Below, one piece after another: positions 16,113-54,506 of a stretch of 64,000 bases of DNA (its first letter is position 1; each line of letters starts with the position of its first letter). The stretch covers positions 2,882,501-2,946,500 of the forward strand of contig NZ_CP053351.1 of assembly GCF_013394655.1 (NCBI RefSeq), in the 5' to 3' direction. The translations under genes were made by a program, and so were the position numbers. Source of the DNA: Winogradskyella schleiferi (lineage in GTDB: Bacteria > Bacteroidota > Bacteroidia > Flavobacteriales > Flavobacteriaceae). The notes below the pieces were generated by a model. The model was not told where the DNA came from, did not search any database, and saw only the letters and a list, made by a program, of their open reading frames with translations.

Positions 16113-16130
16113 ATTAACGCAACAATACGT

Positions 16131-16160: not shown

Positions 16161-16167
16161 AACCATT

Positions 16168-16186
16168 TACTTTGTATTTCAAAGTA
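16168..16186 (+). promoter_or_regulatory. TACTTTG inverted-repeat operator/promoter (copy 2)
   Basis: Identical over 19 bp to the element at 13864-13882 (TACTTTG, TATTT, CAAAGTA), and followed by the same ACTTT.AAT tail. It lies 17 bp before ATG 16204, at the head of the DUF4173-exosortase block. Confidence 0.75.
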
Positions 16187-16203
16187 CTTTAATACAATCA
16201 ACC

Positions 16204-17589: not shown

Positions 17590-17590
17590 A

Positions 17591-18432: not shown

Positions 18433-18498
18433 TGATAAAACTTTTTTATAAAGAACGATTAATTATGAACTACATAGTCTTAATTATAACTAATAAAA

Positions 18499-18528
18499 TT
18501 CCTTCCCATTGGGAAGGTTAGGATGGGA
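18499..18528 (+). repeat. Interspersed hairpin repeat at a ribosome-binding region (copy 1)
   Basis: CCTTCCC and GGGAAGG form a perfect 7-bp hairpin with loop ATT, followed by TTAGGATGGGA and then the ATG at 18529. A second copy in opposite orientation precedes eda at 59688-59715. Confidence 0.6.
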
Positions 18529-19143: not shown

Positions 19144-19161
19144 ATTTAAAATTATTTCAAC

Positions 19162-27219: not shown

Positions 27220-27612
27220 GGGGTCGACTGGTTTTGACAGCGAGATTAATTGAATGGTAAGCACGTCGTGTAATGGCATTGAAACACGTAAAAGGCTAGA
27301 CCAAATTTTAAACGGCGAGAATAACTACGCTTTAGCTGCATAATCTGAATTATAGTAAGATTCGTGCTTATTCCTACTAGGTAGGAAGGCTAAATGTCTC
27401 CGAAAAGCCCTAGTCAGTGGCGTTTCTATTTGAGGCATCGTAAAAATTGACTAAGATCGTGTAGCGCTTCGATGCACTTTCGAGATTAAGAAGCTAAGTT
27501 GTAAGTAGGTTGTCTTTAACCAGCTTGCAATCGAAAACCCAAGAAAAGAATAAACGTGTAGAAAGCCCTTTGGTTACTTGTTTGGACGAGAGTTCGATTC
27601 TCTCCGACTCCA
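27220..27612 (+). ncRNA. ssrA: tmRNA
   Basis: The 5' end GGGGTCGACTGGTTTTGACAG and the 3' end GAGAGTTCGATTCTCTCCGACTCCA form the tRNA-like domain; GGGGTCG pairs with CGACTCC and the T arm has GTTCGATTC. CCA is not encoded. The tag frame at 27314-27343 reads GENNYALAA then TAA, with the usual flavobacterial ending. tmRNA rescues stalled ribosomes and marks the unfinished protein for degradation. A terminator follows at 27619. Confidence 0.97.
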
Positions 27613-27618
27613 CTTTTT

Positions 27619-37927: not shown

Positions 37928-37935
37928 CGTTTTAA

Positions 37936-39027
37936 TTAGTCTTTAGGAAGTGTTATTGTAAAGATAGCACCTTTATTAGTATTATTTTCTGCAGTTATTG
38001 TGCCTTTATGTGATGCCACTATTCCATGAACAACACTTAGTCCTAAGCCTGAACCATCGCCTATTGGTTTTGTAGTGAAAAAAGGTTGAAATACCTTTTG
38101 TAATTCATCTGATGTGAACCCTTTACCTTCATCTGATATTTTAATAACCACATCTTTTTTCGTTTTGTAAGCCTCTATAACAATCAGTCCTTCTTTAGGC
38201 GAAAAATAAATCGCATTTATCAATAAATTAAAAATAATCTGTGTGAATTGAATTGGATCTGCTTTCAACCAGAGTTCTTCCTCTTCAATTTTAATACGAC
38301 GTTTTACGTGTTCTTTTTTGAAGGTAGCATCTAATAATTTAACTGCATTTTTTAAATGAGGAACAAGATTAATGTGTTTCATTTCCTGAGGCATTTCGCA
38401 AGCAAAAAACATGAGTTTTTTAACAATCTCTCGAGAAAAAATAGCATTATCTATAATTTTATCTAAATCCTTAACAGCCTTCTTCTCAGTTTCCAAATCA
38501 TTTTTGAGTAATTCTGCAAAACCCAAAATATTTGCTAATGGTGTATTGAGTTCGTGAGCGATACCTGCTGTAATTTCGCCTAAAATATTTAGACGATCAG
38601 AGTGCTCCATTTGCCGTTTTAACGAGGTTTCATTCTTTTGGATTTCAATACGCTCTAAAAAATTCCCAACTTTTAAGGCTACATTATCCAGTAGCAATTG
38701 TTCTTCTTTTAAAAAATTAATCTCTTTTGAATTTGTTGTCTTTAAATGAACTATTATTTGACCTTTGACGTGATTAAAAATTTTAATATCCGAATGAATA
38801 GTTAAATCATCTTCAATAAATTCATTTGTAAAAATTGAAATATCTTCACAATGAATAATCACAACTGTTTTATCAGGATATTGGAATGCTTTTTTCAAAC
38901 TAAAAACGATGGCTTTTAGGGTGTCATCGACCAATTCTACATTTGCACTGCCAATAATGGATGACACCTCATATAAACACGTTAATTCTTTAATTCTTTC
39001 TTTTAATGCTTGCTCAGTACTAGTCAT
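37936..39027 (-). CDS. Soluble sensor histidine kinase
   Basis: 363 aa and no membrane segment. A GAF-like N-terminal region (about 1-125) leads into a HisKA domain with H158 (GIAHELNTPLANILGF) and a HATPase_c domain (N box NLLINAIYFSP, G1 DEGKGF, G2 GDGSGLGLSVV). It phosphorylates itself and then the regulator encoded 8 bp downstream. It overlaps nhaA by 8 bp. With no transmembrane part, its input must be cytosolic or come through a partner protein. Confidence 0.93.
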   Translation of the reverse strand: MTSTEQALKERIKELTCLYEVSSIIGSANVELVDDTLKAIVFSLKKAFQYPDKTVVIIHCEDISIFTNEFIEDDLTIHSDIKIFNHVKGQIIVHLKTTNSKEINFLKEEQLLLDNVALKVGNFLERIEIQKNETSLKRQMEHSDRLNILGEITAGIAHELNTPLANILGFAELLKNDLETEKKAVKDLDKIIDNAIFSREIVKKLMFFACEMPQEMKHINLVPHLKNAVKLLDATFKKEHVKRRIKIEEEELWLKADPIQFTQIIFNLLINAIYFSPKEGLIVIEAYKTKKDVVIKISDEGKGFTSDELQKVFQPFFTTKPIGDGSGLGLSVVHGIVASHKGTITAENNTNKGAIFTITLPKD

Positions 39028-40363
39028 TATTTATTATTTCTTTATCAACTTCAGAATCATTGATATTTTTAATTTCGCTTGAGCTAAACCTCAATATCAA
39101 ATATCCAATTACGGCAGAAATCAAGGACCCAAGAAGAATGCCTATTTTGGCAGAACTTATATATTCTGGTGAGGATGCAAATGCTAAACTAGCAATAAAT
39201 ATTGCCATTGTAAAGCCAATACCTGCAATGAAAGAAACACCAAAAATTTGCCTTTTATTAATATCTGATGGAATTTCAACTAAATTCAGCTTTTTAGCCA
39301 AAAATATTATTGCTGGAATCCCTAAACCTTTACCTAAAACCAGGCAAATTATAATATTTATTATTAAAGGTATTTCTATCCCAACTGAACTGTCTATGAT
39401 AACTCCTGCATTGGCCAAAGCAAATAATGGTATAATAAAATAGGCTACCCAACCGTGAAAGTTATGTTCTAAATGTTGTAATGGCGACTGAAATTTGTTG
39501 CTCCAACTCTCCAAATCATCCATGTGTTCTATTTGCTCTTTAGATAAAATAGGCTTCTTTAAAACACTTGCATTTTTTATGTTATGATATATAGTTTCTA
39601 ATTGTGAGATAAAGGTCGACGTTTCAATTTTTTGTCTTATTGGAATAGAAAAAGCTAACAAAATACCTGCTACAGTAGGATGTACTCCAGATTTTAAAAA
39701 CAATAACCAAATGATAATCCCTGTGAAAAATGTTATAAATTTAGAATAGTAACCTTTAAAAGATAATACATATAATATAGCCAATAGACCAAGTCCTATA
39801 AGTAATAATGTCATTTTAATAGTTCCACTGTAAAAAATAGCGATGACCAAAACAGCTTCAATATCATCTACAATGGCGAAGGCAATTAAGAATATTTTTA
39901 AACTTATTGGCACTCTTTTTCCTAAAGCATTTAATACTGCTAACGAAAAAGCGATATCTGTTGCCATTGGTATTCCCCAGCCTTTAAACGTTTCCGGATT
40001 TTGATTTAAGAGCATAAACAAGACTACTGGAACTATTACGCCTCCCAAAGCTCCAAATAAAGGAAATGCCAATTTCTTTGCTGAGTTTAATTCGCCAATT
40101 AGCACTTCTCTCTTAATTTCTAATCCTATTAGGAAAAAGAAAATAGCCATGAGACCATCATTTATCCAAAGTATTACCGGTTTTTTAAGCTCAAACCCTT
40201 CAGATGTTATACCAATTTTATAATCCCAAAGGGCAGTATAACTATCTCCGAAAACTGAATTAGCCCAAACTAAGGCTACAATTGTGCTTAATAATAGTAA
40301 AATACCACTAAATCCTTCAATTTGTACAAACTTTTGGAATGGTGTTAGAAATCTTTTAGTCAT
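39020..40363 (-). CDS. nhaA: Na+/H+ antiporter NhaA
   Basis: 447 aa with about 12 membrane helices. NhaA motifs: ALVWANSVFGDSY at about 28-40, INDGLMAIFFFLIGLEIKREVLIGEL at about 67-92, GWGIPMATDIAFSLAVLNALG at about 128-148 and KIFLIAFAIVDDIEAVLVIAIFYS with the two ion-binding aspartates (VDD; E. coli D163/D164). A C-terminal tail is charged. It exports Na+ in exchange for H+. It is co-transcribed with a two-component system, which is unusual. Confidence 0.95.
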   Translation of the reverse strand: MTKRFLTPFQKFVQIEGFSGILLLLSTIVALVWANSVFGDSYTALWDYKIGITSEGFELKKPVILWINDGLMAIFFFLIGLEIKREVLIGELNSAKKLAFPLFGALGGVIVPVVLFMLLNQNPETFKGWGIPMATDIAFSLAVLNALGKRVPISLKIFLIAFAIVDDIEAVLVIAIFYSGTIKMTLLLIGLGLLAILYVLSFKGYYSKFITFFTGIIIWLLFLKSGVHPTVAGILLAFSIPIRQKIETSTFISQLETIYHNIKNASVLKKPILSKEQIEHMDDLESWSNKFQSPLQHLEHNFHGWVAYFIIPLFALANAGVIIDSSVGIEIPLIINIIICLVLGKGLGIPAIIFLAKKLNLVEIPSDINKRQIFGVSFIAGIGFTMAIFIASLAFASSPEYISSAKIGILLGSLISAVIGYLILRFSSSEIKNINDSEVDKEIINND

Positions 40364-40387
40364 GTATAAGTATTTAAATTTTAAAGA

Positions 40388-41017
40388 TTAATGCTTTTCA
40401 ATTCTGTAGAAAGTTACAGCCAATATAATTATCCCAACTACCAAGAGTGCGTAAATTTCCATAGTGGATAATAATTGGTTAGAATTTAATGACTTTTGCG
40501 CAATGGTCATAACGCTTTTACTTTCTGAAACTTGAATGAGCGCCAGGTTATCTAAATCCTTTTGTAATGCAGCCAAATCTTCCTCAAATGGATTTTTATC
40601 ATTAACCTTATCTGTATGTTCATTATTAAGTTGCGCTTTTATCTTCTTATTAAACCTAGCTTCTTTAGACTTCAACTTTTCGAAACCTGTTCTAAAACTA
40701 TTGAAGGTATTCAATTCATTGCGCGTAAGTTCTGTTTCAGAAAATAATGCTATTAGCGTTTCAATGTCTTTATTTGTACTCAAGTTTATGGCTCGAGAAT
40801 CTTCTATGAGCTGGCTTTGTTTTTTATGAATGAGATTATTCATTTTATAGATATAATCTTGTGCCAATACACGATCTTTGTATACAGAGTTGATGGCATT
40901 TTGAGCAGTTTCAAAATGGCGCTTATCTATACGGTTTGTTCCATATATTAATAAAAAAACAGCGAGTAAAACTAAAACAATGTTTAATTGACTTGATATG
41001 GTCTTTTTTTTGGACAT
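40388..41017 (-). CDS. Membrane sensor with a four-helix-bundle domain
   Basis: 209 aa. Two membrane segments (about 10-28 and 184-203) frame an all-helical region of about 155 residues (DKRHFETAQNAINSVYKDRVLAQDYIYKMNNLIHKKQ...). This matches the 4HB_MCP-type sensor of chemoreceptors and kinases, but here there is no output domain. It is the first gene of the operon with nhaA, the soluble kinase and the regulator. I infer that it supplies the extracytoplasmic sensing that the kinase lacks. Confidence 0.75.
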   Translation of the reverse strand: MSKKKTISSQLNIVLVLLAVFLLIYGTNRIDKRHFETAQNAINSVYKDRVLAQDYIYKMNNLIHKKQSQLIEDSRAINLSTNKDIETLIALFSETELTRNELNTFNSFRTGFEKLKSKEARFNKKIKAQLNNEHTDKVNDKNPFEEDLAALQKDLDNLALIQVSESKSVMTIAQKSLNSNQLLSTMEIYALLVVGIIILAVTFYRIEKH

Positions 41018-41547: not shown

Positions 41548-41940
41548 CTATTCAAACCCTAAAATCAATTCGCCTTCTGATGAACTCAATGCTATTTGGA
41601 TAATGGTATGATCTTCATTGCTCACTGGTGTCATTGTACCAGAGTAGGTTATATTTCCATCTTGCCGTTCTATGGTAAACTCTATACTGAGACCATTAAA
41701 ACTACCCGAAAGAAAATTTTCTGTATTAGGATCATTCGGTCGGTTAAACTCAGCACCTTCAAAAACACCGGATTCCACGCCTCTATTATCATTATCAGGT
41801 TGCAGGTCAATGGCATAATCATCTTCTCCCAACACTGGCCAAGTAGCATTAAATGCTGGAATAAATACGGTGTCTTCAGAACTGTCGGATCCGCAACCAA
41901 CGCTTATAATTATAATAGCAATTGCAATCGACTTTTTCAT
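41548..41940 (-). CDS. Small lipoprotein
   Basis: 130 aa from ATG 41940 (MKKSIAIAIIIISVGCGSDSSED); six extra upstream codons are unlikely. SPII lipobox SVGC at residues 13-16. The mature part is acidic and beta-rich (GSFNGLSIEFTIERQDGNITYSGTMTPV), with the look of a small beta-barrel lipoprotein. No known family. It is the last gene of the CHAT/hydrolase cluster, 46 bp after the CsgG-like gene. Confidence 0.75.
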   Translation of the reverse strand: MKKSIAIAIIIISVGCGSDSSEDTVFIPAFNATWPVLGEDDYAIDLQPDNDNRGVESGVFEGAEFNRPNDPNTENFLSGSFNGLSIEFTIERQDGNITYSGTMTPVSNEDHTIIQIALSSSEGELILGFE

Positions 41941-41986
41941 TATGTTAAACGTTTTCATGGCTATAGTTTTTAATAAATTATTGTTA

Positions 41987-43003
41987 TCATTCTCTCATTT
42001 CCGTTTTGATCTTAATAAAAAGTTGGTCGAGCTCATCTTCCACTTTATCAATGGCTACAGTTAATCCCAAAGTTGAATTTTCAGAGTCTCTTATTATCTC
42101 TTTTCCTAATCGTTCGCGTTCGTTTTTACTGTTTTGACCACCCCTGAAATCCAAGATTTTTTTTCTTATATTATTAAGTTTTAGAATGTGCTTTTTATGG
42201 ATATCATTAAGAATGCCATTATATGCCGTTTCCAAATCTCTACCGTAGGCCTTACCAAAAACAGATTCAAAATCTAAAAGGTGTTTTTCTTGATTAGCAT
42301 TCAAATCCATAAAAATTTTATTGTAGGCATTGATTGTATTTTCTAATTCTTTAAAGTAATCTTCATTTTTTAGTGCCAGATTAATAATATCTTCAAAAGC
42401 TGTTTGAACATCTTTTACCCGAACCATATAAGTGTCCATTTTTTTTGAAATAAAACCTAGCTGTTCGTTTTTAGCTTCCAATATTTCTTTGGCATGAAGT
42501 TTCATTATTAAACTTTTCATGTATTTTTTTCGATGCGAATTGCTCTTTATCAAAGCCTTCTCAATGATGATACTTTCTTTTTTCGGAATTTCGCCGTTAT
42601 CTAGATTTTGAAAAAAAACAATGACCTCGTAAATACCACTTTCTTCATCTTCCATTAATTCCCCAAACACGACCATTTCAGCTTTAATCGTTTTTAATTT
42701 ATCAACAGTATCAGTAGACAAATTCTCAACATTAGATATCCTATTTTCCATATCTCTATGCATTAAAACCTGACTGTGGTTCCGACGTTGCAAGACCGTG
42801 TATTTTTCTAATTTAATGAGTTCTGTTTCGAAGTCTTCCGTAAATTTTTCAGCAAATTTTTCAATCGTATCATCGTTGGTTTTAAAATCCCAAACGTAGA
42901 CATTTGTTTTAGAGTTCTGTGCATGTACATTTGCCATAAACTGTACAATAGTAAGCCCTATAAGAATTAAGTTTTTGATAAAATTTCTAAAATTATTTTT
43001 CAT
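41987..43003 (-). CDS. Secreted CsgG-like protein with C-terminal coiled coil
   Basis: 338 aa. Signal peptide (FRNFIKNLILIGLTIVQFMANVHAQ). Residues about 30-160 resemble the CsgG/LpoB/TolB-N fold: VYVWDFKTND, ETELIKLEKYTVLQRRNHSQVLMHRDMENR, and AEMVVFGELMEDEESGIYEVIVFFQNLDNGEI. The remainder is a long coiled coil. Proteins of this fold sit in the periplasm and often join outer-membrane assemblies. The family call is by pattern only. Member of the CHAT cluster. Confidence 0.6.
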   Translation of the reverse strand: MKNNFRNFIKNLILIGLTIVQFMANVHAQNSKTNVYVWDFKTNDDTIEKFAEKFTEDFETELIKLEKYTVLQRRNHSQVLMHRDMENRISNVENLSTDTVDKLKTIKAEMVVFGELMEDEESGIYEVIVFFQNLDNGEIPKKESIIIEKALIKSNSHRKKYMKSLIMKLHAKEILEAKNEQLGFISKKMDTYMVRVKDVQTAFEDIINLALKNEDYFKELENTINAYNKIFMDLNANQEKHLLDFESVFGKAYGRDLETAYNGILNDIHKKHILKLNNIRKKILDFRGGQNSKNERERLGKEIIRDSENSTLGLTVAIDKVEDELDQLFIKIKTEMRE

Positions 43004-43047
43004 GGTCCCCTTACGTTTTAATATTCAAAACTTCATTCTTTTCAGAT

Positions 43048-43692
43048 TTAAGAATCACATACAATCGGTAATTCCATATTATTTTTTGTTATTAATTTAT
43101 CAATGGCACATTCCTTAGTTCCATTTTTTATGACAAAACGATGACTGCTATTTTTTTTAAGGACTTTTACCGTTATAAAGATTCCAGATTTGTCAGTAAT
43201 AATGGCCTGTTTTCCATCGACATAGATTTTAGCGTTTACCATATTTGAGGGCACTACCAATTTCACAGTATAAATATTGGTCCTATTTAATATGTTGGCA
43301 TTTACTAATTTGTCCGATTTGATTCGCAAGTCTTCATTGGTATTAAGGATTTTAGTGACTTGTGCATTGAATTGCATGGAGGTTTCTTGGGCATTTGGAC
43401 ATTCGGCCAAATCTTTTTCCAGTTGTACCTTAAGCTGATCCAGCTCGTTTATTTTATATTGTTGACTGGTTAATTGGTTGGATAAAGCTGCAATGGTAGT
43501 TTCAAAATTCTGAATGGAATCTTGCAGTTTATGTGCTTTTTCTTTGCTCGCTTTTATTTCAATACCAAAAAGGCTCAATTCTTGGGTATTGCCCAAAAAA
43601 ACTTTTAGTTCGGTTTTGAACAATAGAATTGCCAGAATAGCAAATACTGCCCAAATTAAGGTTTTGTACGGAAAAATTGGTTTGCTTTCCAT
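43048..43692 (-). CDS. Membrane-anchored coiled-coil protein
   Basis: 214 aa. A short cytosolic start, one membrane helix (about 11-29), then a coiled coil (about 48-130) and a C-terminal beta domain with VKLVVPSNMVNAKIYVDGKQAIITDKSGIFITVKV, a PEGA-like strand pattern. Two cysteines near the end (KECAID, PIVCDS) could form a disulfide, which favours a periplasmic location. Not recognised further. 12 bp downstream of the flavoprotein gene. Confidence 0.6.
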   Translation of the reverse strand: MESKPIFPYKTLIWAVFAILAILLFKTELKVFLGNTQELSLFGIEIKASKEKAHKLQDSIQNFETTIAALSNQLTSQQYKINELDQLKVQLEKDLAECPNAQETSMQFNAQVTKILNTNEDLRIKSDKLVNANILNRTNIYTVKLVVPSNMVNAKIYVDGKQAIITDKSGIFITVKVLKKNSSHRFVIKNGTKECAIDKLITKNNMELPIVCDS

Positions 43693-43704
43693 AATTTTTA
43701 ATTC

Positions 43705-45309
43705 TTATAATGAGGCTATTAATTCTTCGTTTATATGCAATTCCCTATCAGCTAAACCGATATCTTTTAAAAACTGATTTGAAAACAATTCAGCCATATC
43801 ACCACTTAACAAAGCGCTTCTACAAGCTATCCATTCGTTAATTTTTGAGGCATCAAACATGTGGTTTACTAAATCCGGAAACGTCCAATCACTATTTTTT
43901 CCCCAATGTATTGTAAACGGAATATTGTTTTGTTTTAAGACCTCAATCATTCGTCTTGAAAATTCTGTTAAGCTCATAATTTTTCTGGTCTTATTCCAAT
44001 GTACACCGTCAATTTCTAGCATACAGGTGATAGGAAACTTGGTGAACGCCAAAGTAGCCTTAGATTGTTTTACAAAACGCATAGCGAATATTCCAGGAAT
44101 TGGTCCTTCGTTTTTTGTTAAGTCTGCCATCAGTTTTAAAGCTTTTGAAGCATTTTTATGATCTACCCCAACTGAGCAGGCAAAGGCTGGACCTTGATAA
44201 GGTGCATCCCAAAAAATTTGAGGCAGTGTACCAATCAATTCTTCATCAACTTTTGGTAAAATTGTCTTTTCTAATCGTTTGACCAACCACGGAATACTTT
44301 TTGGAAATTTTTCTGCCATTTTAGTAAACAAATGAATTAAATCCCGATATAGAGATTGTTTGATTATTGGAAAAGGATCTTTATAATCTGCTACATAAGG
44401 TTTTTTGTACATCAATTCTACAACATAGTCCGATTCATCACTATATTGATTAATAAATACTTTAAAGTGGTAAGGCGTAATACCGAAACCTTGATCATCT
44501 GTTTCTTCAGGAATTTTGAACGTTGAATTTTTAAAATCCATTGTATCAGATAATTGAAGCGCAGTAGTCTTATCTATTTTTTTGACGTAACGTTTAAGCA
44601 AAAATCGAGGTTCGGACTCTAACACAATTCCATGTATAAACCCGAATGAACCTAGCCCAACTAAAGCGGCATTGAAAAGTTTATCATTCCTTATGATTCT
44701 GTTGCTTATTTTATTGGCAAATTCGTCATTCAATGCTGGCTCTGTATGACGTTCCAAATAAACAATATCATTATCATTCGGTCCAATAATTAAATTGAGA
44801 CCGACTACATAATCTTGCACTGATCCAACCTGTAATGCAGAACCATGAACTCCCGTTGAAATACAGCCTGCAATAGTTTGTCCGTTGCTTGCTCCTGTCG
44901 TTTTTAAGGATTTGCCGTGAGCGGAAAGGACTTCGGACACACGTTTAATAATGGTGCCGCATTCAAATAAAAATAGATTTGATGCTTCAAAACTAGTATT
45001 AGCATGAAGGTTTTCTTGAACGATTGGTATATGAATATTCATAAATCCATTGTAGTGCATCCTGTCTTTTTGACTCGCAATATGGTTCATGGACCATGCT
45101 GAACCATACGCTCTAAAACCATGGTCAGTATCATTTGTTTCATTGATAAGTCTTTGAATTTCCTGAGCAGCATCATTATAACGGTCTATTTTATCTGGCA
45201 TATTACCATCACCTTCCAACTCAGTCACGTAAAGTTTTTTCAACGGAAATGGTCCATTGTTATGTAAGGTATCCCATTTGTTTAATGTATGTGTTTTTGT
45301 TGTTGCCAT
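43705..45309 (-). CDS. FAD-binding oxidoreductase, aldonolactone-oxidase-like
   Basis: 534 aa, no signal peptide. FAD-binding type 4 (VAO/GLO) domain: residues about 110-185 hold KSLKTTGASNGQTIAGCISTGVHGSALQVGSVQDYVVGLNLIIG, the same region as TGTHGS in L-gulonolactone and arabinono-lactone oxidases. The C-terminal part has TIHWGKN, like the HWGK motif that contacts the flavin in that family. So a sugar-lactone or alditol oxidase chemistry is likely; the substrate is unknown. It is not expected to be a housekeeping gene, because it sits inside the CHAT cluster, 4 bp from the lipoprotein gene. Confidence 0.8.
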   Translation of the reverse strand: MATTKTHTLNKWDTLHNNGPFPLKKLYVTELEGDGNMPDKIDRYNDAAQEIQRLINETNDTDHGFRAYGSAWSMNHIASQKDRMHYNGFMNIHIPIVQENLHANTSFEASNLFLFECGTIIKRVSEVLSAHGKSLKTTGASNGQTIAGCISTGVHGSALQVGSVQDYVVGLNLIIGPNDNDIVYLERHTEPALNDEFANKISNRIIRNDKLFNAALVGLGSFGFIHGIVLESEPRFLLKRYVKKIDKTTALQLSDTMDFKNSTFKIPEETDDQGFGITPYHFKVFINQYSDESDYVVELMYKKPYVADYKDPFPIIKQSLYRDLIHLFTKMAEKFPKSIPWLVKRLEKTILPKVDEELIGTLPQIFWDAPYQGPAFACSVGVDHKNASKALKLMADLTKNEGPIPGIFAMRFVKQSKATLAFTKFPITCMLEIDGVHWNKTRKIMSLTEFSRRMIEVLKQNNIPFTIHWGKNSDWTFPDLVNHMFDASKINEWIACRSALLSGDMAELFSNQFLKDIGLADRELHINEELIASL

Positions 45310-45313
45310 AGCT

Positions 45314-45664
45314 TTAATTTGTTGGTTTCATACAAACATATTTTACTTTCAGCTTGCGTTTTTTACCAAAGGTTACGACACTTAAAAGCGATCCACCAAA
45401 AGTGTTTTTAAACTCTATGGTGTGTAGTTTCCCCGATTTGCATTTCTCTGTCTCTTTTATTAAATAAGTAAAGTCTTTTGAGGTGGCATCAATTTTAATA
45501 ACTGTGTCTAGCTCCACTACTTCCATACCTCTATAATAATCATCCCGTACCATTAATGGGTCTGGCTGCATTGCTCCATTGATGCTTCTAAGCCTCACGG
45601 AATAACAAGACGCCAGAAGAAGACAGACGGAAAGAAGTACTAATTTTTTGGTGATGTTATTCAT
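45314..45664 (-). CDS. Small lipoprotein
   Basis: 116 aa. SPII signal with lipobox LLASC (C20). The mature part (YSVRLRSINGAMQPDPL...DDYYRGMEVVELDTVIKIDATSKDFTYLIKETEKCKSGKLHTIEFKNTFGGSLLSVVTFGKKRKLKVKYVCMKPTN) is basic, with two cysteines. No known family. Third gene below the CHAT gene in the cluster and 4 bp from the flavoprotein gene. Confidence 0.75.
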   Translation of the reverse strand: MNNITKKLVLLSVCLLLASCYSVRLRSINGAMQPDPLMVRDDYYRGMEVVELDTVIKIDATSKDFTYLIKETEKCKSGKLHTIEFKNTFGGSLLSVVTFGKKRKLKVKYVCMKPTN

Positions 45665-45709
45665 AATTACTTATTTTTTTGGTTGGTCATTATGCTCTAA
45701 AAAAAATCT

Positions 45710-46945
45710 CTAAACCGATTTTAATTTTTCTAAGGTTTCAGTTGCATATTGTGCGCCGAAACTTTCGGATAAACCCAAAGATTCCTCTCTTCCCAAAGTG
45801 TAATATAAATTCGTTACATTTTGTGGCGCATAGCACAATACCAAATCCGTAAATACATTATAAGCCCCTTTCGTTTTTTTATTTGAGCTCGTTAATCCAC
45901 TATAACTTGTGGATGCAAATTTGGAACAGTCCTGCAATTTATTTTTATGGTTTAAATAACTTTTGCCAGCAATAACCTGACAACCCGCTGAAAAATTAGA
46001 ATTTCCGATGCCTGTCCAATGAATATTTATAGACGGATTTACCCGAAGTCCTTTAACGCTGCCTGAACGGTCTGTGAACATGACATCCTTAGCTGTATAA
46101 GCGTTATCATTGTCCCAATCCCTTATGATCATCACGCCATTCCAGTTGGCTGGTTTTAATGCCCTGTATATTTTCTTTTCCACGGATATTTTGTGCCATC
46201 CAAAGCGATAACGATGTTGCCCTTCAATTAAAAACGCTTCATCTTTTCGTCCTGCCATATTTACGCTGGCATCTGTTGAGCCCCAAAATGTGAATGCCAT
46301 TCCATTGATGAGTAATACGAATAAGTCATCATTTTCTCGTCGTATAGCACTTTCTGTCTGTTTTCTCCTGATGCCAACAAGATGAATATCATTAGTATCA
46401 AATTTCCATTCTGAAGGTTTTTTTGTGGAATAGGTTTTCGATAAACTATTCAGATGTTTTAAAATTGGACCAGGATTATTGGTGTAATGCTCTTTGGCAT
46501 TATGTAATAATTGCATCCAATTGGCATAAGCTTCCGAAGGTTTTTTACTTGTTGAACTTCCCCATTCCGACACTTTATTTTCTTTCTGCCAACGTTCAAT
46601 GTGGCTCATGGTACCACTTCCCACAATACCATCTGGCACCATGTTATCTTCACTTTCCATAGTGCGGACATATTCTTGAAATAATCGTACAGCAGCTTGG
46701 GTCACGTAACCAAAAACACCATCAAAAGCAGCGCGTGGCATAAACCCTGCCTTAAATAGAAACTGCTGTAATTTTAAAACGCTATTATCTGTACCTTCTC
46801 TAAAAGTGCGCCATTTCGTTCGGTCATCATCCCGAAACGTTACTTTATTAATAAGTAGACCATCAATATGGTAAGGTTTCAAAAAATCCTTTCTGTTCTT
46901 TGGTCTTTTATTCTTATCGCAACTTCCTAAATATAATGCAGCCAT
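45710..46945 (-). CDS. Peptidoglycan-binding protein with L,D-transpeptidase-like SxGC motif
   Basis: 411 aa, no clear signal peptide. A PG_binding_1 domain covers about 55-120 (SVLKLQQFLFKAGFMPRAAFDGVFGYVTQAAVRLFQEYV...VPDGIVGSGTMSHIE). The second half ends in H309-W-T-G-I-G-N-S-N-F-S319-A-G-C322-Q, which has the spacing of the YkuD L,D-transpeptidase catalytic motif (H-x-S-x-G-C). Such enzymes cross-link or cut peptidoglycan. The overall C-terminal domain is not a standard YkuD, so this is a hypothesis. 3 bp from the CHAT gene, so strictly coupled. Confidence 0.6.
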   Translation of the reverse strand: MAALYLGSCDKNKRPKNRKDFLKPYHIDGLLINKVTFRDDDRTKWRTFREGTDNSVLKLQQFLFKAGFMPRAAFDGVFGYVTQAAVRLFQEYVRTMESEDNMVPDGIVGSGTMSHIERWQKENKVSEWGSSTSKKPSEAYANWMQLLHNAKEHYTNNPGPILKHLNSLSKTYSTKKPSEWKFDTNDIHLVGIRRKQTESAIRRENDDLFVLLINGMAFTFWGSTDASVNMAGRKDEAFLIEGQHRYRFGWHKISVEKKIYRALKPANWNGVMIIRDWDNDNAYTAKDVMFTDRSGSVKGLRVNPSINIHWTGIGNSNFSAGCQVIAGKSYLNHKNKLQDCSKFASTSYSGLTSSNKKTKGAYNVFTDLVLCYAPQNVTNLYYTLGREESLGLSESFGAQYATETLEKLKSV

Positions 46946-46948
46946 GTT

Positions 46949-49900
46949 TCAATTATTTAATAGATTTTCCAATTCGATTTTTATAGCATCCAAACATTCT
47001 AAAAGCTCAGCATCCTTTACATAATGACGCAAGAAATCGATTTGTAAAATTTCTATCTTAATATATCTCGGACTATAAATTTGATTGAATATTTCATTGT
47101 ACCAACCTAATATTTTTTGATCGTGATGCGTGTCGTTGGTATTTGAAATCAATAAAATCGCATAGCTCATTTCGGTCATTCCTATAAGGACAGAAATGTC
47201 TAAATCAGCTTTATCAAAGTCATCCAATTCTTGGCGATAATCCGTTAAATGTTTTACCAAGTCCGTAACATCTTCAAATGCTTTGTTAGTTTTCAATCGG
47301 TCTTTTAATTTTATATCACCTAAGGTTTCCAAAATATGACCGACCATCAAAATGTTGGATAAAGCGTCCAAATACTGTCCACTGTATTTATCACTTGCCA
47401 TTTCCATGGCTTCGTTATAATAACTATAGGCTATTTTTAATTGCTCAATTTCTTCTTTTTCGTCTAAGTGTTTTGCTGTTAATTTATAGGCATTTCCTAC
47501 GATATTCAATCGGCTGGCATTTCGGCCAGCGAGTGTAAGCAATCGAATTTCATTTAGATAGTCTACAATAACGTTTCCGACCGCATCTTTCTTTTTGGAT
47601 TTTTTAGCGGCTTCAACGCTACCTTCTAATCGGTAGGATTGCACCAAACAATATTGCTCTAAGGCTTTTATGGAATAATTGCCATTATCAAACTGAAATA
47701 AGCCCTTATATTTTTGAAAGGCGACTTCAATATTTCCCAATTCATCGTAAATAAGTGCTTCTTTTTCCAGCACCATGGCATCCAATAAATTTGAAGCTTC
47801 TGCCCTATCAATGTAGGTATCGAGCTTCGCCAATGCTGATTTTTCTTCTTCTTTTTTATCACGAATTAAAATCAACAAATTATCCAAATCGGTATGCACT
47901 TGAGACGACACTACGTACTCTTGATTGTTTCGATCTAATTTTTGTCTGTCATTGAATTTATAGAATTGGTTGCCATAACATTGATACGCTCCCCAAGTAT
48001 TACTATGTTTATGTTGCTGATAACATTCCAATCTGGCAAATTGTACCGCACTTCCAAAATCGTAACCTTGCAGCATGCGCTCATAAAAGGTTTCGGAGAA
48101 CACTTTGGCGGCAGAATCATCCACACCCCAACCTGCTATTACAATCGCTTTGACACCCATTTCAATCAATTGTGTTCCTATATTGGCAGCCAAGCGATAA
48201 CGATTTTGGCTATATTTATCATCCTTTCCATTTACAACGCCCGAAAAACAACAGTTGATAAAGACAAATTCCGGTACATAGCCCAACTGGTTGATCATCG
48301 CAGGATCGATACAAATTCCGCTTCCTATGGCGATTCCAATATTATTATTTTCAGGATCATAAATACCGTGTCCCGCAAAATGCATCATCATATAATGCTT
48401 GCTGAACAATTCCATCATAATGTTTTTGGCATTGGAATGTAATAACGAATTAACCTTATAACCTTCCTTTGTCAATTTGCTAGACACCCATTCCGCTTCT
48501 GCCTTAGCTGCTGGAAGTGGCGACAAACCTTCTTGGTCATAAACTGGATCACCAACTACAAATGCTTCCTTATTCTGAAATCCAACTTGATTAAAACGCG
48601 TGGTATCTTCCGAAATCAATTGCCTTATAAAACTCGATGTTACCGAAGCTGGAATTTCAGTAGTGGTATTGTCATGCAATAATTCCCATGGAATTTGGGC
48701 TGCAGATTTATCTAACTTTAAAACGAGGTTATTTTGATTTCTGAAGGTGTTTTTGAAATCATTAGGAATCAACATTTCAAACAAGGATTTTGATAGGCGC
48801 TCATCCCAATTTGATGAGACAGACATTTCTTTCAATAGATGGTTAATTTTATTCAATCCGATGCCAACCATTTCCTGTTCTACTCTTGCCAAACCGTTTG
48901 AAGCAAAATATCTGAATCCGCTTACCGCTTCTTCGTCTTTTCTAGATTCATCGGTGACTTTCACGCTATTAATGTGAAGGTTAAACCACCAATCATAACT
49001 ATAGTTTGCGAATATTTTTTTCTTTTTCGCACCTGGTCTTCTGGCAATACCTTTATCATAATTAAATGTTACCCGATTATCGGTTCTATATAATCGTGTT
49101 AAACTAAAATAAGCCTCACTTGCCACAGATTCATAGTAGTTGACAATTTCGATGTCTTTTATCAATTTTAAACCTTCACCTGTTTCCTTGATCTGTTTAT
49201 TCGCCTCTGCAACACCCAATAAAATACCTTTCATGGAATCTTCAATAGGTAGTTTTCCGTAACCGATTCCCATTAGCACGAAGGAAATTCCGGTCGCATA
49301 CTTTTTGGCACTAGGTAATGTATAATTATCGCGCATAAACATGGCATATTTTAGCACAGCCTGCTTTACGGTTTTGGACAGCACATAAGACGTTAAACTA
49401 CCTGTGCTTCCTAATCCACATACTATGGCACCTTTAGGTTTTGTTTTGAGGTTGAAAAACACCTCACTCTCGCCAATTTCGCCAGGATAGTAGCCAATAC
49501 TTAAGCGTTGGGACAATCGATTATCCAAATAAGAGTCCAGCGCTTTTTCAGAACTTAGAATTAAATCCATAAAGAAATGTCCAACCATTACTGGATAGGA
49601 TGACATCTTTAAATCGCCATGAATAATCTTTACATTGAAAAATTCAGCTTCTGGCTCAATGGTTTTATGCGTACCAAATAAAGCATCTACAACGGCTTTG
49701 GAATCGTAAAGGGGTTCTGGCGATTCAAATACTTCAGAGATGATTTCTCCACTTCGGGATGCTGGTTGCTGATTGCTCAATCTATTGGTAGCACCTGTTT
49801 CCAGTATATCTGAAATCCCATGAAAAATATAATCTTCATTCGCTAAATCGCCATGAGAGGTATGCGTATAATATAAATTTGGTGTGTTGAGCAATTGCTT

Positions 49901-52321
49901 AGGAATTCCTGTTTTCCATGTCACGCTGCCATCACCATGCGACGTGGCTTTGTAAACTAATTTTTCGTTTTTTGAAAGCCAACGATCTTTAAATTCATAA
50001 TCAAAAACCGTTTGATCCGACTGGCCACAGATGTAATAAATATTCCTAAAATCATCGTTGTCCAATTTCGAATTCAAAAATGTTCTGATATTATCCCTAT
50101 AGGTTTTAAAATCCTTTAAGGCTTGCGCATTGTCCTTTGGATCTGGCATGTGCTTTAGATCCGTCTTAGCATCCAAATTTTTCCAAAAGTTTTGTTGCCA
50201 AAATGGACGCTGTGTGTCATCACCTTCTATTGGCAACAATTCGAAAACCCCTGGATAATTCCAAAACACCTCTAAAAGTTCTTTACGGTTGTGTTTAAAA
50301 TCTATAAAAGCTAACTGTTTTACACGTTTACTGTGACCAGTCAGCACTTCCATAATCAAATAAGACCCTAACCATGGCGTACCCAACATAATGAATCTAT
50401 TATGTACATTTTCCTTGAATTTAGACCAGGTATCTTCATAATCCATCATACATTGTCTTACCACCAAACCACCCATGGAATGCGCTACGATGTGAATTTT
50501 TGCGCTGCTGGTCTGCAAATACTCTTCCAATTGTTTTTTCAAATCCTCTGCAGCACCTTTGACCGACTTTCTCCAATCAAACTGAAAAGTAACCACATCA
50601 TATTTTTCCGATAAATGATCGGCCAAGCCGTAATAGTATTTTTTTATGATCCCACTAGCGGCAACTTTTTTCGCATTAATACCTAACTTTTTTACAATGG
50701 CGCCTCGATTCAACTCAGGCATATCTACCCATTGCTCTTCGTTATTGTTAGCAATGGTCGATCCAATGATGCCTGGCACAATAATGACGATATCCTTGGT
50801 AATGGTTTCTGGTTTTTTCTTGAAACCTTCCATGGATAAGGGATCGAGCAGAATACCGCGTTCGCCTTCAGTATAAATGTGCTTTTTAAATAAAGTCGTC
50901 GGGTTATTGTCATTGGCATTTAAAGCCTCGACTATGGCGACACTTGAATTATCCGCAGAAAAATAATTGAAATGGCTCGTTGTTCCTCCTTTTGCCAAAA
51001 ATTTGTAAATCCCCTCTTTTCTTTTAATACCGTGTTTCATGCGATGTGTATCCACGACCAAATCATTATCCACACGATAAAACAGATTTGCCAAAATAAC
51101 TTTTAAGGAATTGAAATTGATACCTCCAACATCTGCATCACCAGAAATATTATACAGATCACTTACTACTGAAGTATCCGACGCATTCATCATTTTTTGA
51201 AAAAGCGATTCAGGCATCATGGCATTCAGTCCTGGTAAAACTTCAGGATTTTCCTTTTGGCTTACCAGTTCCAATAAAAATGCTTTTACCGCATGATAAA
51301 TCGGGTTTCCTGCGCCAACTGCCAATACAACTGCATTTAAAAAGAGATTGAAAAAATGATCTACACGACGTGATAAAATCGTAGTACCGCTTGCAGGTGC
51401 AGCCACACGGACGACTTTATTTACGGTGATTTTTTTCTTTTTGGCCATCTCATTGATGGCATTCATTAATTTGTGATTGTCTTCTTCATTGTCATCATCA
51501 TCCAGAATACCTATTTCAGTTTTACTAAAACCTATAATTGGATTTCTACGATCACATTTCGCCAAAATATCGGCAACCAACCCACCTCTGGAATGACTCA
51601 ATATATCCAAATTGCATTCTTTAGTACAGTCCTTTAGAAAATCCAATGCATTTTGAAGCGGACTAACAGAAAGCGTATAATGTTCTAAAGCCAAAATTTT
51701 GTTGTCGTAAATGCTCACCATATCATTCCATGCCTCGTTATTGTCGTTCAGTTTATGAAAGGCATCAATTGTGGTGGACAAAGTGCCATGCAACAGAAGT
51801 AAAATAGGTTGCGTAATATCAAAACTATTGGTGTTTTCGACCCTAGTAAATTTCGCATCTATTTGATACAAACCAGGATGGGATTGTACGCGTTTATCAT
51901 AAGCTTTTGCCAGCTCTTTAATCCCTAATTTTGCGATATCTTGTTTGGTCACTTTAGGTTTAAAAACGCTAAACACTTTGACCATGGCCCGTTTTATAAT
52001 GCCACGACTTTCATTTTCGGATAAGATTTGAATGTCAAAAACATAATCATCACTTGAAAGTGAACGTTTTGCCAATACCTTTTTTCCATAGATGTCCTGT
52101 ACATCTTCAGGATGACCTATCCACTCTGTATCGTCAGCAAATTGAAGTGCCACAATATCGTGTTCATCAAAATGAACTTCATTCACTTGATTTTCAGAAC
52201 GTGTTGAAGACACCTCTATATATGATTTAAGTTCATATTTCTGGTCGAGTGTTTTTGGGACGATGTAATCAATGGATGACACCTCACGCTCTACTCCTGT
52301 TATTTTTGCTATTTTGCTCAT
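46949..52321 (-). CDS. Giant dual alpha/beta-hydrolase and CHAT-protease protein
   Basis: 1790 aa, no signal peptide. First alpha/beta-hydrolase (about 170-460): LLLLHGT then SHSRGG with nucleophile S244. Second hydrolase (about 508-840), LCAT/PGAP1-like: VIIVPGIIGST, then AHSMGG with nucleophile S615, and GDGSV and SHGD as Asp/His candidates. A domain of about 860-1180 is unassigned. A CHAT caspase-like protease lies at about 1180-1460: IPWELL, HFAGHG with H1318, and FINCCFSG with C1358 (dyad intact). The C-terminal 330 residues are helical and TPR-like. CHAT enzymes in bacterial defence are usually switched on to cut a partner. Two lipase-type modules in front are rare. Confidence 0.8.
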   Translation of the reverse strand: MSKIAKITGVEREVSSIDYIVPKTLDQKYELKSYIEVSSTRSENQVNEVHFDEHDIVALQFADDTEWIGHPEDVQDIYGKKVLAKRSLSSDDYVFDIQILSENESRGIIKRAMVKVFSVFKPKVTKQDIAKLGIKELAKAYDKRVQSHPGLYQIDAKFTRVENTNSFDITQPILLLLHGTLSTTIDAFHKLNDNNEAWNDMVSIYDNKILALEHYTLSVSPLQNALDFLKDCTKECNLDILSHSRGGLVADILAKCDRRNPIIGFSKTEIGILDDDDNEEDNHKLMNAINEMAKKKKITVNKVVRVAAPASGTTILSRRVDHFFNLFLNAVVLAVGAGNPIYHAVKAFLLELVSQKENPEVLPGLNAMMPESLFQKMMNASDTSVVSDLYNISGDADVGGINFNSLKVILANLFYRVDNDLVVDTHRMKHGIKRKEGIYKFLAKGGTTSHFNYFSADNSSVAIVEALNANDNNPTTLFKKHIYTEGERGILLDPLSMEGFKKKPETITKDIVIIVPGIIGSTIANNNEEQWVDMPELNRGAIVKKLGINAKKVAASGIIKKYYYGLADHLSEKYDVVTFQFDWRKSVKGAAEDLKKQLEEYLQTSSAKIHIVAHSMGGLVVRQCMMDYEDTWSKFKENVHNRFIMLGTPWLGSYLIMEVLTGHSKRVKQLAFIDFKHNRKELLEVFWNYPGVFELLPIEGDDTQRPFWQQNFWKNLDAKTDLKHMPDPKDNAQALKDFKTYRDNIRTFLNSKLDNDDFRNIYYICGQSDQTVFDYEFKDRWLSKNEKLVYKATSHGDGSVTWKTGIPKQLLNTPNLYYTHTSHGDLANEDYIFHGISDILETGATNRLSNQQPASRSGEIISEVFESPEPLYDSKAVVDALFGTHKTIEPEAEFFNVKIIHGDLKMSSYPVMVGHFFMDLILSSEKALDSYLDNRLSQRLSIGYYPGEIGESEVFFNLKTKPKGAIVCGLGSTGSLTSYVLSKTVKQAVLKYAMFMRDNYTLPSAKKYATGISFVLMGIGYGKLPIEDSMKGILLGVAEANKQIKETGEGLKLIKDIEIVNYYESVASEAYFSLTRLYRTDNRVTFNYDKGIARRPGAKKKKIFANYSYDWWFNLHINSVKVTDESRKDEEAVSGFRYFASNGLARVEQEMVGIGLNKINHLLKEMSVSSNWDERLSKSLFEMLIPNDFKNTFRNQNNLVLKLDKSAAQIPWELLHDNTTTEIPASVTSSFIRQLISEDTTRFNQVGFQNKEAFVVGDPVYDQEGLSPLPAAKAEAEWVSSKLTKEGYKVNSLLHSNAKNIMMELFSKHYMMMHFAGHGIYDPENNNIGIAIGSGICIDPAMINQLGYVPEFVFINCCFSGVVNGKDDKYSQNRYRLAANIGTQLIEMGVKAIVIAGWGVDDSAAKVFSETFYERMLQGYDFGSAVQFARLECYQQHKHSNTWGAYQCYGNQFYKFNDRQKLDRNNQEYVVSSQVHTDLDNLLILIRDKKEEEKSALAKLDTYIDRAEASNLLDAMVLEKEALIYDELGNIEVAFQKYKGLFQFDNGNYSIKALEQYCLVQSYRLEGSVEAAKKSKKKDAVGNVIVDYLNEIRLLTLAGRNASRLNIVGNAYKLTAKHLDEKEEIEQLKIAYSYYNEAMEMASDKYSGQYLDALSNILMVGHILETLGDIKLKDRLKTNKAFEDVTDLVKHLTDYRQELDDFDKADLDISVLIGMTEMSYAILLISNTNDTHHDQKILGWYNEIFNQIYSPRYIKIEILQIDFLRHYVKDAELLECLDAIKIELENLLNN

Positions 52322-52323
52322 GG

Positions 52324-54072
52324 CTAGTTTTTTATGGTATTCACTGGCAATCCCGGAAGATTAAATGGCAGGTTAATGCCAAAAAACCAATAGAAGTTAT
52401 CAATGGTTGTGTTATAGTTGATGCCAACACTTATGATATCTTTAAAAGCGGTTGTGATTACTCCGACGCCAAATTCGGGCGAGCCGTCGGTATTAAAATC
52501 GGGCGAAGCGAAATTGAGTCCGACTCCAAAATCCAAGAATTCATTATAGAAATACGATTTACTAGAACCGAATTTTAGCAGTATAGCTGCGGAAGGTGCA
52601 TAAAAGAAATCCCGATCGGATTGAAGATTTAAATCATTTTTATGGAACGGATTAGCAAAAATTAATCCGACAGCGACTTCCGAACGTGCACCGATAAGTT
52701 GCATGGTAAATTCCCGTTGTTCTAAAGTAAAAATTTGTTCTGGTGCATTTTCAACTGTAGAAGGCAATCGTAAAATCATTTCAATCAACAATTCATCACC
52801 ATTTTGGCGATTCCCTGTGCCTTTAAGATTTATGTATCCTTTTTCAGGAAGATTGTCCAAGGAAAAAGAAATCACTTCGTCTCCTATTGATTTATTGGCG
52901 ATATAGTTGGACTGTAATCCAAAAAGTAAGGCTATGCCGTTTTCGAGTTTTTTAATGTTGGCTTGCACTTCTCCATAACAACTATTAAACTCATTCATTA
53001 AGGGTGCAAAATCAGAAGCAAGATTGGTTTGACTGACTAAGGTCTTAAAATCTGAAATGGTTGTATCTATATTTTTTAGACTTTCAACTACAGACAACAC
53101 CTGATCTTTAATAGTCAACAACGCCGCAATATTCCATTGACTTAATTCTGTTTTCAAAAGGTGATAAAGCGTTTCAAATTGATTGATTACGGCCTGAATC
53201 TCTATAATTTTGGCTTTTATTTCAGCAGGAACGACATCATTTAACTCTATATTTTGAACAAACTGAATGCTATTATTTTTAAACGAGACGACACAAGAAA
53301 TACTTCCAAATTCGTTTAATAACTTCGCTTTTAGCGTTTGGAAGAGCTGAAATTCCCTTTCATTATTTTCCCTTGCAATTTCTGTAAGGGCTTCTAGTTG
53401 TTGTTGCTCTTCAACAGACAGACTTGTCACCCATCGTTCTACGGTAAAATAATCGCGATTGGAATACGTATCGTAATTTTGAATATGAACGCGGTCGCCT
53501 CCACTTTCGTCTTTTTTATAGGCCACGACGCTGACTTTATATTTGTCCGCTTCAATCGTCTTTAACTCTGATTCAATACTCAATATGTCATTATTTAAGT
53601 TTGAAAGAATATAAGGTTCAGGAAGATTTCCTTCTGCAAAGGCTTGGGTAGTAAAAAATTCTGCAGTTAATTCATTATATCGAGAAGATAGAAAGGGGTC
53701 TGATTGTATGTCGTTTAAAAATCCGTCCATAATCTCAAAGAAGGTCTTTTGTTCTTCTGCCGTTGTCATTTGGTTTTCTAGAATTGAAATTACGGCACTC
53801 TGGTTGCGAAGTGCCTGTTGTAAGCTTATTAACTTAGATTCTAATTCTACAGTCTCATTGAGTTGTGGAAATTGACTTTTTATAATCTCAAGTAGCTTCG
53901 ATTTTGAAACCTCAACTTCTAGCGTACTGTTAATTTCAACAATTTGAGCCGCAACAATAGGAATTGCACGCGAATCTCCTCTGTATGTTTCTGTTACTGA
54001 CAGAATTTGTCCATACATATTCGCAAACAAGCCAAATAAAACAAGTGTTACTGTATATTTTGAAAAATTCAT
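52324..54072 (-). CDS. Secreted coiled-coil protein with beta-strand C-terminus
   Basis: 582 aa. Signal peptide (YTVTLVLFGLFANMYGQ). Residues about 50-390 are coiled-coil and helix; the last 190 alternate polar and hydrophobic strands (FTMQLIGARSEVAVGLIFANP, SYFYNEFLDFGVGLNFASP, FGVGVITTAF, ISVGINYNTTIDNFYWFFGINLPFNLPG) as in an outer-membrane beta-barrel. No known family. Located 2 bp upstream of the CHAT gene start, it is probably its envelope partner. Confidence 0.65.
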   Translation of the reverse strand: MNFSKYTVTLVLFGLFANMYGQILSVTETYRGDSRAIPIVAAQIVEINSTLEVEVSKSKLLEIIKSQFPQLNETVELESKLISLQQALRNQSAVISILENQMTTAEEQKTFFEIMDGFLNDIQSDPFLSSRYNELTAEFFTTQAFAEGNLPEPYILSNLNNDILSIESELKTIEADKYKVSVVAYKKDESGGDRVHIQNYDTYSNRDYFTVERWVTSLSVEEQQQLEALTEIARENNEREFQLFQTLKAKLLNEFGSISCVVSFKNNSIQFVQNIELNDVVPAEIKAKIIEIQAVINQFETLYHLLKTELSQWNIAALLTIKDQVLSVVESLKNIDTTISDFKTLVSQTNLASDFAPLMNEFNSCYGEVQANIKKLENGIALLFGLQSNYIANKSIGDEVISFSLDNLPEKGYINLKGTGNRQNGDELLIEMILRLPSTVENAPEQIFTLEQREFTMQLIGARSEVAVGLIFANPFHKNDLNLQSDRDFFYAPSAAILLKFGSSKSYFYNEFLDFGVGLNFASPDFNTDGSPEFGVGVITTAFKDIISVGINYNTTIDNFYWFFGINLPFNLPGLPVNTIKN

Positions 54073-54083
54073 AAGACTTGTGT

Positions 54084-54506
54084 TTAAGAGGTTACAAATG
54101 GGATATCATGAGATTGCGCCCTAAAAAAAGATTGCTGCAAACTGGCATAGGAGAGCTGGCCATTTTTTAGAATAATACCATCGATCTGATCTAATATTGG
54201 CGAAAAGCAAAAGCATTTGATGTTATCGTAAGATTCATCAGAATTGTCAGCATCAGAAGCTTTAAGATGCTTTTTTAAGGTTTTGGATAATGTATCGTGA
54301 TTTCTTAACCAAAGTAACCAACGCTCCATTTTAAAATATGAGAGTTGTGCCAAATTATCGGCTTTGATTATCGCTTCCCGAACCGTTTCTGTATCTCCGA
54401 TAATGACCATAATGATCATCATCTCTTTTTCTATAAAGGATTTAAAAATTGATTCTGCCAGAGCGGCATCATCCAGTGGAATAATGGTAGTGCGCTTGAG
54501 ATTCAT
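54084..54506 (-). CDS. Unknown 140-aa protein, first gene of the CHAT cluster
   Basis: No signal peptide. MNLKRTTIIPLDDAALAESIFKSFIEKEMMIIMVIIGDTETVREAIIKADNLAQLSYFKMERWLLWLRNHD is compatible with a small alpha/beta protein; a charged linker is followed by CFCFSPILDQIDGIILKNGQLSY. I do not recognise it. It lies 11 bp from the secreted coiled-coil gene and has no gene directly upstream, so it starts the leftward cluster. Confidence 0.6.
   Translation of the reverse strand: MNLKRTTIIPLDDAALAESIFKSFIEKEMMIIMVIIGDTETVREAIIKADNLAQLSYFKMERWLLWLRNHDTLSKTLKKHLKASDADNSDESYDNIKCFCFSPILDQIDGIILKNGQLSYASLQQSFFRAQSHDIPFVTS

Follow-up and report, generated by a model that had tools for sequence, protein, structure and literature searches.

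A candidate conflict locus of interchangeable modules around a dual hydrolase–macro–CHAT protein in Winogradskyella schleiferi

We analyzed a 64,000-nucleotide stretch of the Winogradskyella schleiferi genome (contig NZ_CP053351.1, positions 2,882,501 to 2,946,500; hereafter, the window), which lies in a 4.56-Mb single-contig genome and carries a block of nine minus-strand genes running from 54506 to 41548. In transcription order, the open reading frames (ORFs) encode proteins of 140, 582, 1790, 411, 116, 534, 214, 338, and 136 amino acids, here called a140, b582, C1790, d411, e116, f534, g214, h338, and i136, and the gaps between them are 11, 2, 3, 45, 4, 12, 44, and 28 bp. An earlier reading made from the letters alone (the sequence-only reading) had described the same nine same-strand genes in this order, and all of them were recovered; its tight spacing also held, with a range of 2–45 rather than 2–46 bp. 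The block is set apart by 457 bp upstream, where an EamA-type gene follows, and by 530 bp downstream. Promoter and terminator pattern scans returned 57 and 10 sites against 57.8 and 9.3 in shuffled sequence, hence no excess, and a −33/−7 promoter pattern, which we take to be of the Bacteroidota type, had no site before a140; because these scans stayed at shuffle level, the case for co-transcription comes down to strand and spacing.

The largest product, C1790 (46949..52321, minus strand), contains, in order, a first alpha/beta-hydrolase domain (abH1; DUF7379, S244/H450), a second one (abH2; LCAT/PLA2G15-like, S615/H823), a macro fold (residues ~892–1085), a CHAT protease (H1318/C1358), and TPR-S-like repeats. 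Pfam matches to DUF7379, LCAT, and CHAT bear out the earlier description of a dual hydrolase-CHAT protein, the CHAT score being 88.6 bits against a cut-off of 24. The CHAT part has a caspase-clan fold of the separase/Craspase type, and abH2 is nearest to phospholipase A2 XV/LCAT. Among 120 homologues, H1318 and C1358 are each kept in 119, S244 in 117, and H450, S615, and H823 in all; D420 and D797, likewise kept in 120 of 120, probably serve as the acids of the two hydrolase sites. D903 of the GDL motif in the macro segment, kept in 115 of 120, makes this segment a candidate for binding an ADP-ribose-type ligand. Hydropathy analysis found no N-terminal hydrophobic segment that could act as an export signal, and one marginal peak was the only hint of a transmembrane (TM) segment. 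Judged from its residues, C1790 joins three conserved enzyme active sites in one protein predicted to stay inside the cell. The closest database protein, from W. forsetii, is 97% identical, and a wide scan of genome contigs with C1790 returned two loci, one of them a partial Alkalibacillus hydrolase match. Another homologue (locus L029, 7197–13772) has ~400 extra residues (2191 aa) and is followed by three more same-strand ORFs. A phage-borne origin of C1790 and d411 was considered and set aside, as pattern-based scans of a viral collection with both alignments confirmed no relative.

Next in order, d411 (45710..46945, minus strand) pairs an N-terminal peptidoglycan-binding domain (PG_binding_1 in Pfam) with a C-terminal L,D-transpeptidase-like domain in which H309, S319, G321, and C322 are conserved; the SxGC motif occurs in 15 of 15 homologues, so that the peptidoglycan-binding SxGC protein of the sequence-only reading stands. 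L,D-transpeptidases of the YkuD family have the motif HX(14-17)[S/T]HGC, whereas d411 has H309 followed at a shorter spacing by SAGC at 319–322, with alanine for the last histidine. The match to the L,D-transpeptidase-like fold is weak, and Foldseek gave a single match under 0.001, an amidase/wall-binding protein; the fold reading comes from a second comparison, and the domain could also belong to a family missing from the set used there. Hydropathy analysis found neither an N-terminal hydrophobic segment nor a TM segment, and d411 is therefore predicted to combine a wall-binding domain with the lack of an export signal, as modular endolysins do. A lipobox pattern also flags the start of d411; we discounted this match, since its cysteine is at residue 9 and several homologues lack it.

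To follow the genes through other genomes, C1790, d411, f534, and h338 were searched genome-wide (as were two flank genes, in the genus), while a140, b582, e116, g214, and i136 were counted in the loci fetched for these four. C1790 had matches in 20 of 299 family genomes, of which 14, the W. schleiferi genome included, held a full-length homologue; a fifteenth came from a genome of the same genus outside this sample (G587, whose loci L022 and L130 are one genome). These 15 are called CHAT genomes below, and for the 14 homologues that lie outside the window ~20–25 kb of surrounding sequence were mapped in each case. Six genomes with matches to the CHAT domain only (G235, G206, G179, G090, G077, and G227) served as a comparison set and were not counted as C1790 homologues.

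The wall-binding protein d411 goes with C1790 even where the two genes are unlinked. It was present in 11 of 14 CHAT genomes against 2 of 285 others in the family, and a sample of 296 genomes from across the phylum gave three matches, two of them in the same genus. Linkage was seen in nine of the 15 CHAT genomes (seven tandem, G129 convergent, G231 divergent); three more (G279, G039, and G190) carry d411 away from the CHAT gene, and it was not found in G096, G168, and G063. A mirror comparison of the two proteins gave a Spearman correlation of 0.64 (Mantel P = 0.001), which we do not take as proof because it is compatible with plain vertical descent. Taken by its occurrence, C1790 tends to travel with this wall-binding partner.

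All nine genes occur together in one of the 15 CHAT genomes, that of W. schleiferi itself, which rules out one conserved nine-gene system and with it the earlier view of the cluster as a single unit. Because the neighbours of C1790 differ among the 15 genomes, we regard the block as a local stack of modules. The sequence-only reading had named randomly varying neighbours as its refutation; they do vary, yet not randomly: the borders at which the loci break are shared (ab / C / d / ef / ghi), and six genomes keep the gene order C-d-e-f, three the longer order C-d-e-f-g-h-i. The first module consists of a140 (54084..54506, minus strand), which has no Pfam or NCBIfam match and no TM segment by hydropathy, and b582 (52324..54072, minus strand), which has an N-terminal hydrophobic, signal-like segment and no Pfam family and ends 2 bp before the C1790 gene. 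This pair was seen at three of the 15 CHAT loci, all in Winogradskyella.

A second pair comprises e116 (45314..45664, minus strand), a small lipoprotein-type protein, and f534 (43705..45309, minus strand), an FAD-linked oxidoreductase resembling aldonolactone oxidases. The aldonolactone-oxidase-like flavoprotein proposed earlier is borne out at the level of the broader family, with f534 passing the Pfam FAD_binding_4 cut-off and the motifs HW[GA]K, which we take to be diagnostic of sugar 1,4-lactone oxidases, and G[AV][SG].GQ[TS].AG present in 31 of 31 cases; the subfamily assignment did not hold, the best score against the NCBIfam sugar-lactone-oxidase models being 46.4 bits where the cut-off is 396.8. 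Matches to f534 were found in 38 of the 299 family genomes, 27 of them with at least 55% identity, and the 11 genomes with lower-identity or short matches were left out of the co-occurrence test. In every complete f534 locus mapped (31 of 31) e116 directly adjoins f534. The pair is linked to CHAT in six of the 15 genomes, and 25 of the 31 loci lie outside CHAT clusters, so that it is no CHAT-specific part. In the six genomes with CHAT-domain-only matches, f534 was found in four, and neither d411 nor h338 in any.

The third module is formed by g214, h338, and i136. The first protein (43048..43692, minus strand) has a TM segment (residues 5–27), a coiled-coil-like middle, and a C-terminal domain (140–213); h338 (41987..43003, minus strand) has a signal-like N-terminus and no Pfam or NCBIfam match, so that its earlier label 'CsgG-like' falls away; and i136 (41548..41958, minus strand) is a small protein with a lipobox-like N-terminus (IIISVGC, by eye). 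Matches to h338 occurred in eight of the 299 family genomes; one (G229, E = 4e-4) was left out of the counts, and three of the remaining seven are CHAT clusters. At all seven h338 loci mapped, i136 lies 3′ of h338. In G211, G189, G129, and G279, h338 and i136 stand directly behind a gene whose product has a TIR domain at its N-terminus, a single predicted TM segment, and a further domain at its C-terminus (hereafter, TIR-TM protein). g214 matches the four TIR-TM proteins with E values of 2e-13 to 4e-21; in three genomes their C-terminal domain is 39–52% identical to residues 140–213 of g214 over 71–73 aa, and identity to the G211 protein is 33% over 115 aa. g214 thus retains the membrane anchor and C-terminal domain without the TIR domain. 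Because this domain is common to TIR-TM proteins that precede h338 and i136, g214 looks like a TIR-less receptor, and the three genes like a variant of a TIR-receptor module. The complete module is present in three of the 15 CHAT genomes (G000, G209, and G246), and a partial g214 alone in G173.

Two regions with TIR-TM relatives deserve separate mention. Locus L127 (G189:C13, 36–9720) is a compact run of genes for TIR-CHASE2-type, TPR, patatin, TPR-S, SLATT-type, TIR-TM, h338, and i136 proteins and looks like a fuller conflict island. In G279:C2, a 150-kb region (~164,000–314,000) holds a number of TIR genes, three of which crowd into 3 kb at 164–167 kb, together with an h338-i136 locus and a locus with d411, the e116-f534 pair, STAND, and TIR.

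The mosaic just described invites another explanation, namely that unrelated accessory genes have stacked by chance in a variable spot, the only functional units being C1790-d411, e116-f534, and h338-i136, which would have nothing to do with each other. The single complete cluster among the 15 genomes would fit this, as would the residence of e116-f534 mostly elsewhere and the lack of association between this pair and CHAT after exclusion of the linked genomes (2 of 9, P = 0.14). We nevertheless consider it unlikely, given the gaps of 2–45 bp, the gene orders kept in six and three genomes, and the renewed company of d411, e116-f534, STAND, and TIR in G279. In addition, f534 is present in all seven counted h338 genomes, linked or not (P = 2e-8 over the 299 family genomes), and C1790 and h338 share two of four genomes after linked ones are removed (P = 0.007).

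The block is accessory and sits at different places within the genus, as its absence around the EamA-type gene in relatives and its different site in G587 indicate. Near the EamA-type gene of ten cluster-free relatives, no cluster gene was found at >50% identity and coverage, and nine of the ten keep at least the next gene or genes of the window upstream of it. In the tenth (L182, G637:C1, 88–10435) the EamA-type gene directly adjoins counterparts of window 10–25.5 kb, and a counterpart of window 26–54.5 kb therefore does not lie between them. G157 carries a140, b582, C1790, and d411 at the same place as in the window, and in G587 the block stands beside a gene that we read from its sequence as RNA polymerase beta′.

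We scanned the 15 CHAT loci for effector types (TIR, caspase, patatin, KAP, and others) and found such genes near four: L036 (G231), where CHAT is surrounded by two caspase genes and one of SLATT type; L035 (G129), with two TIR genes and a patatin near CHAT; L025 (G209), with a patatin directly behind i136; and L030 (G168), with a KAP NTPase directly behind CHAT. Farther afield, an Azotobacter plasmid copy of the CHAT gene has genes for type I restriction, Fic, and recombinase proteins next to it, and an Ensifer copy comes after genes for a STAND NTPase and a protein of the periplasmic-binding type. In Paracoccus (L117, 5648–8923; L115, 6324–8453), the CHAT gene directly follows genes whose products have several hydrophobic segments and, in one case, a solute-binding domain; these are possible sensor-effector pairs.

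Several of these observations weigh against a role in conflict. Eleven of the 15 CHAT loci, including that of the window, lack any effector type sought; such types were sought and found near three of the 25 free e116-f534 pairs (L051, L087, and L088), leaving 22 without; and two Proteobacterial CHAT relatives stand behind genes with solute- or sugar-binding domains. Together with the exported-type and wall-binding companions, the redox pair, and the L,D-transpeptidase-like protein, they would suit envelope upkeep, that is, lipid and peptidoglycan remodelling or stress repair with CHAT as a regulatory protease. We judge this improbable, as C1790 is patchy (full-length in 14 of 299 family and 3 of 68 genus genomes), part of its relatives have TIR, caspase, patatin, STAND, SLATT, or KAP neighbours, and neither C1790 nor d411 has an N-terminal hydrophobic segment.

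Our tentatively favoured reading sees in the block a horizontally variable, accessory locus for conflict, of the cell-suicide or abortive-defence type and built from interchangeable modules, with C1790 as effector and d411 as wall opener. The earlier proposal of a protease/lipase effector with envelope-linked companions agrees with it in the missing export signal and the conflict-type context at four CHAT loci, though not in treating the nine genes as one system. At rest, C1790 would be held inactive by its TPR-S-like, N-terminal, and macro parts, and the activating signal would come in via its macro or TPR part. Its serine hydrolase sites, recognized by sequence, may then attack membrane lipid while the CHAT site cleaves proteins; d411, as a cytosolic endolysin-like wall enzyme, could act after inner-membrane breach or CHAT cleavage, and the resulting lysis might spare neighbouring cells from phage or other attack. 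The mechanism, the trigger, and an anti-phage role are thus inferred. From homology and predicted topology, g214, h338, and i136 could form an envelope-facing sensor unit of a membrane-anchored ectodomain and two exported-type proteins; since the sister version carries a TIR domain, CHAT may take the place of TIR as the recipient of the output in CHAT clusters. e116-f534 would be an independent, captured redox/lipoprotein pair, and a140-b582 a local addition.

A more specific proposal, which we hold to be rather unlikely as it stands, is a swappable receptor-to-lysis pathway in which the envelope sensor (ectodomain, h338, and i136) is wired to a TIR enzyme in some species and, via the TIR-less g214, to C1790 in others, with C1790 unleashing d411. 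The favoured reading, if right, would offer a natural domain swap between a TIR receptor and one that lacks TIR but has a related ectodomain and shares both exported-type partners, making the question of how an envelope signal reaches a cytosolic suicide effector directly testable. It would also add a lytic branch of bacterial caspase-type cell death that needs no gasdermin and relies instead on a protease together with enzymes acting on membrane lipid and on the wall. Gasdermins diverge fast, and while no gasdermin was matched among the nine proteins in PADLOC or Pfam, this divergence may hide one.

The pairing of a lipase with a wall enzyme, both without signal peptides, resembles cargo sets of type VI or contractile-injection systems, and the genes might accordingly be thought to supply effectors exported against rivals. 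This seems very improbable, as Pfam and NCBIfam gave no match to a family involved in delivery or immunity for any of the nine proteins, and a 1790-aa protein with TPR-S-like repeats would be an odd cargo.

The macro fold, with D903 of its GDL motif widely kept, raises another mechanism, in which CHAT and the lipases are switched on by a macro ligand that a separate TIR protein of the same cell produces. Such an ADP-ribose messenger link has its appeal, since Thoeris has macro and caspase-like effectors that are responsive to messengers of this type: macro ThsA binds ADPR (PMC11204291) and N7-cADPR activates the caspase-like protease of type IV Thoeris (PMC12847820). TIR genes lie near CHAT in G129, and the W. 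schleiferi genome has one TIR gene. The 15 CHAT genomes held 43 TIR matches (mostly in G129, G279, G231, G190, and G209) against 8 in 15 genomes without the CHAT protein, the latter taken from the top of a list rather than drawn at random. TIR_2 presence above cut-off was only slightly commoner (9 of 15 against 6 of 15), with none in G157, G587, G013, G246, G173, and G168, which does not support TIR as an obligatory trigger, and no TIR match was found among the nine cluster proteins. We therefore regard this mechanism as distinctly unlikely.

Three neighbouring features of the window were recorded in passing: a tight minus-strand run adjoining the cluster (36599–41017) with a sigma-54 response regulator, a histidine kinase, an NhaA-type antiporter (our own reading), and a 4HB sensor; a plus-strand run of small membrane-type genes (13868–23539) with an MPAB_Lcp oxygenase-like protein, DUF4153, and a weak VIT-domain protein; and a tmRNA gene (27220–27613, plus strand) with the tag GENNYALAA.

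We compared this probable conflict-type locus with known systems. PADLOC gave weak matches only (best E = 0.0013), too weak to identify the block as a known defence system. Consistent with the earlier claim of novelty, a search of a literature collection with few subscription papers turned up no paper with DUF7379 and no description of this gene set, of the effector architecture of C1790, or of the receptor swap. The predicted NTP-dependent conflict systems (eLife 2020, PMC7159879) likewise couple a caspase-superfamily peptidase to an alpha/beta-hydrolase and include SLATT, TIR-related, and STAND parts and an iSTAND branch with TM-anchored wall-facing domains; unlike our block, they have a core of MoxR, vWA, and VMAP, or else of iSTAND or GTPases. 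Neither the nine proteins nor x209 gave a Pfam match to MoxR, vWA, or VMAP above cut-off, the bpMoxR match of the sigma-54 regulator at 36599 being below cut-off, and the words CHAT, lipase, and patatin (as word start) occur 0 times in the main text of that paper. The Death/TRADD-N and EAD systems (eLife 2021, PMC8195603) offer a similar effector menu of caspase, macro, and alpha/beta-hydrolases that are read there as membrane-lipid hydrolases, whereas the nine proteins have no Death-like or TRADD-N match in Pfam; the three 'chat' matches in that text are an author's name. LypABC (PMC13236601), which is CARD-NLR-like and lyses Caulobacter cells, shares the principle of immune-type peptidases controlling host lysis, but it uses trypsin-like and ATPase parts, and the main text of that paper has no occurrence of the words CHAT, lipase, or peptidoglycan. 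With Thoeris the block has in common a macro domain in a membrane-damaging effector and a caspase-type effector; it differs in having no TIR ThsB gene next to the effector and in uniting macro, CHAT, and two hydrolases in one protein that, bar the marginal peak, has no TM segment. The Craspase TPR-CHAT and SAVED-CHAT proteases, whose structures are solved, have the CHAT fold, His-Cys pair, and TPR-type regulatory part of C1790; in C1790, however, the same chain also carries a macro domain and two hydrolases, and beyond weak PADLOC matches no CRISPR or SAVED part was found in the nine proteins. Finally, although d411 departs from modular phage endolysins and YkuD L,D-transpeptidases in its SAGC for SHGC, its weak fold match, and the absence of a relative confirmed in the pattern-based viral scan, it shares with them a wall-binding domain followed by a catalytic-type domain, the lack of an export signal, and the cysteine of the SxGC motif.

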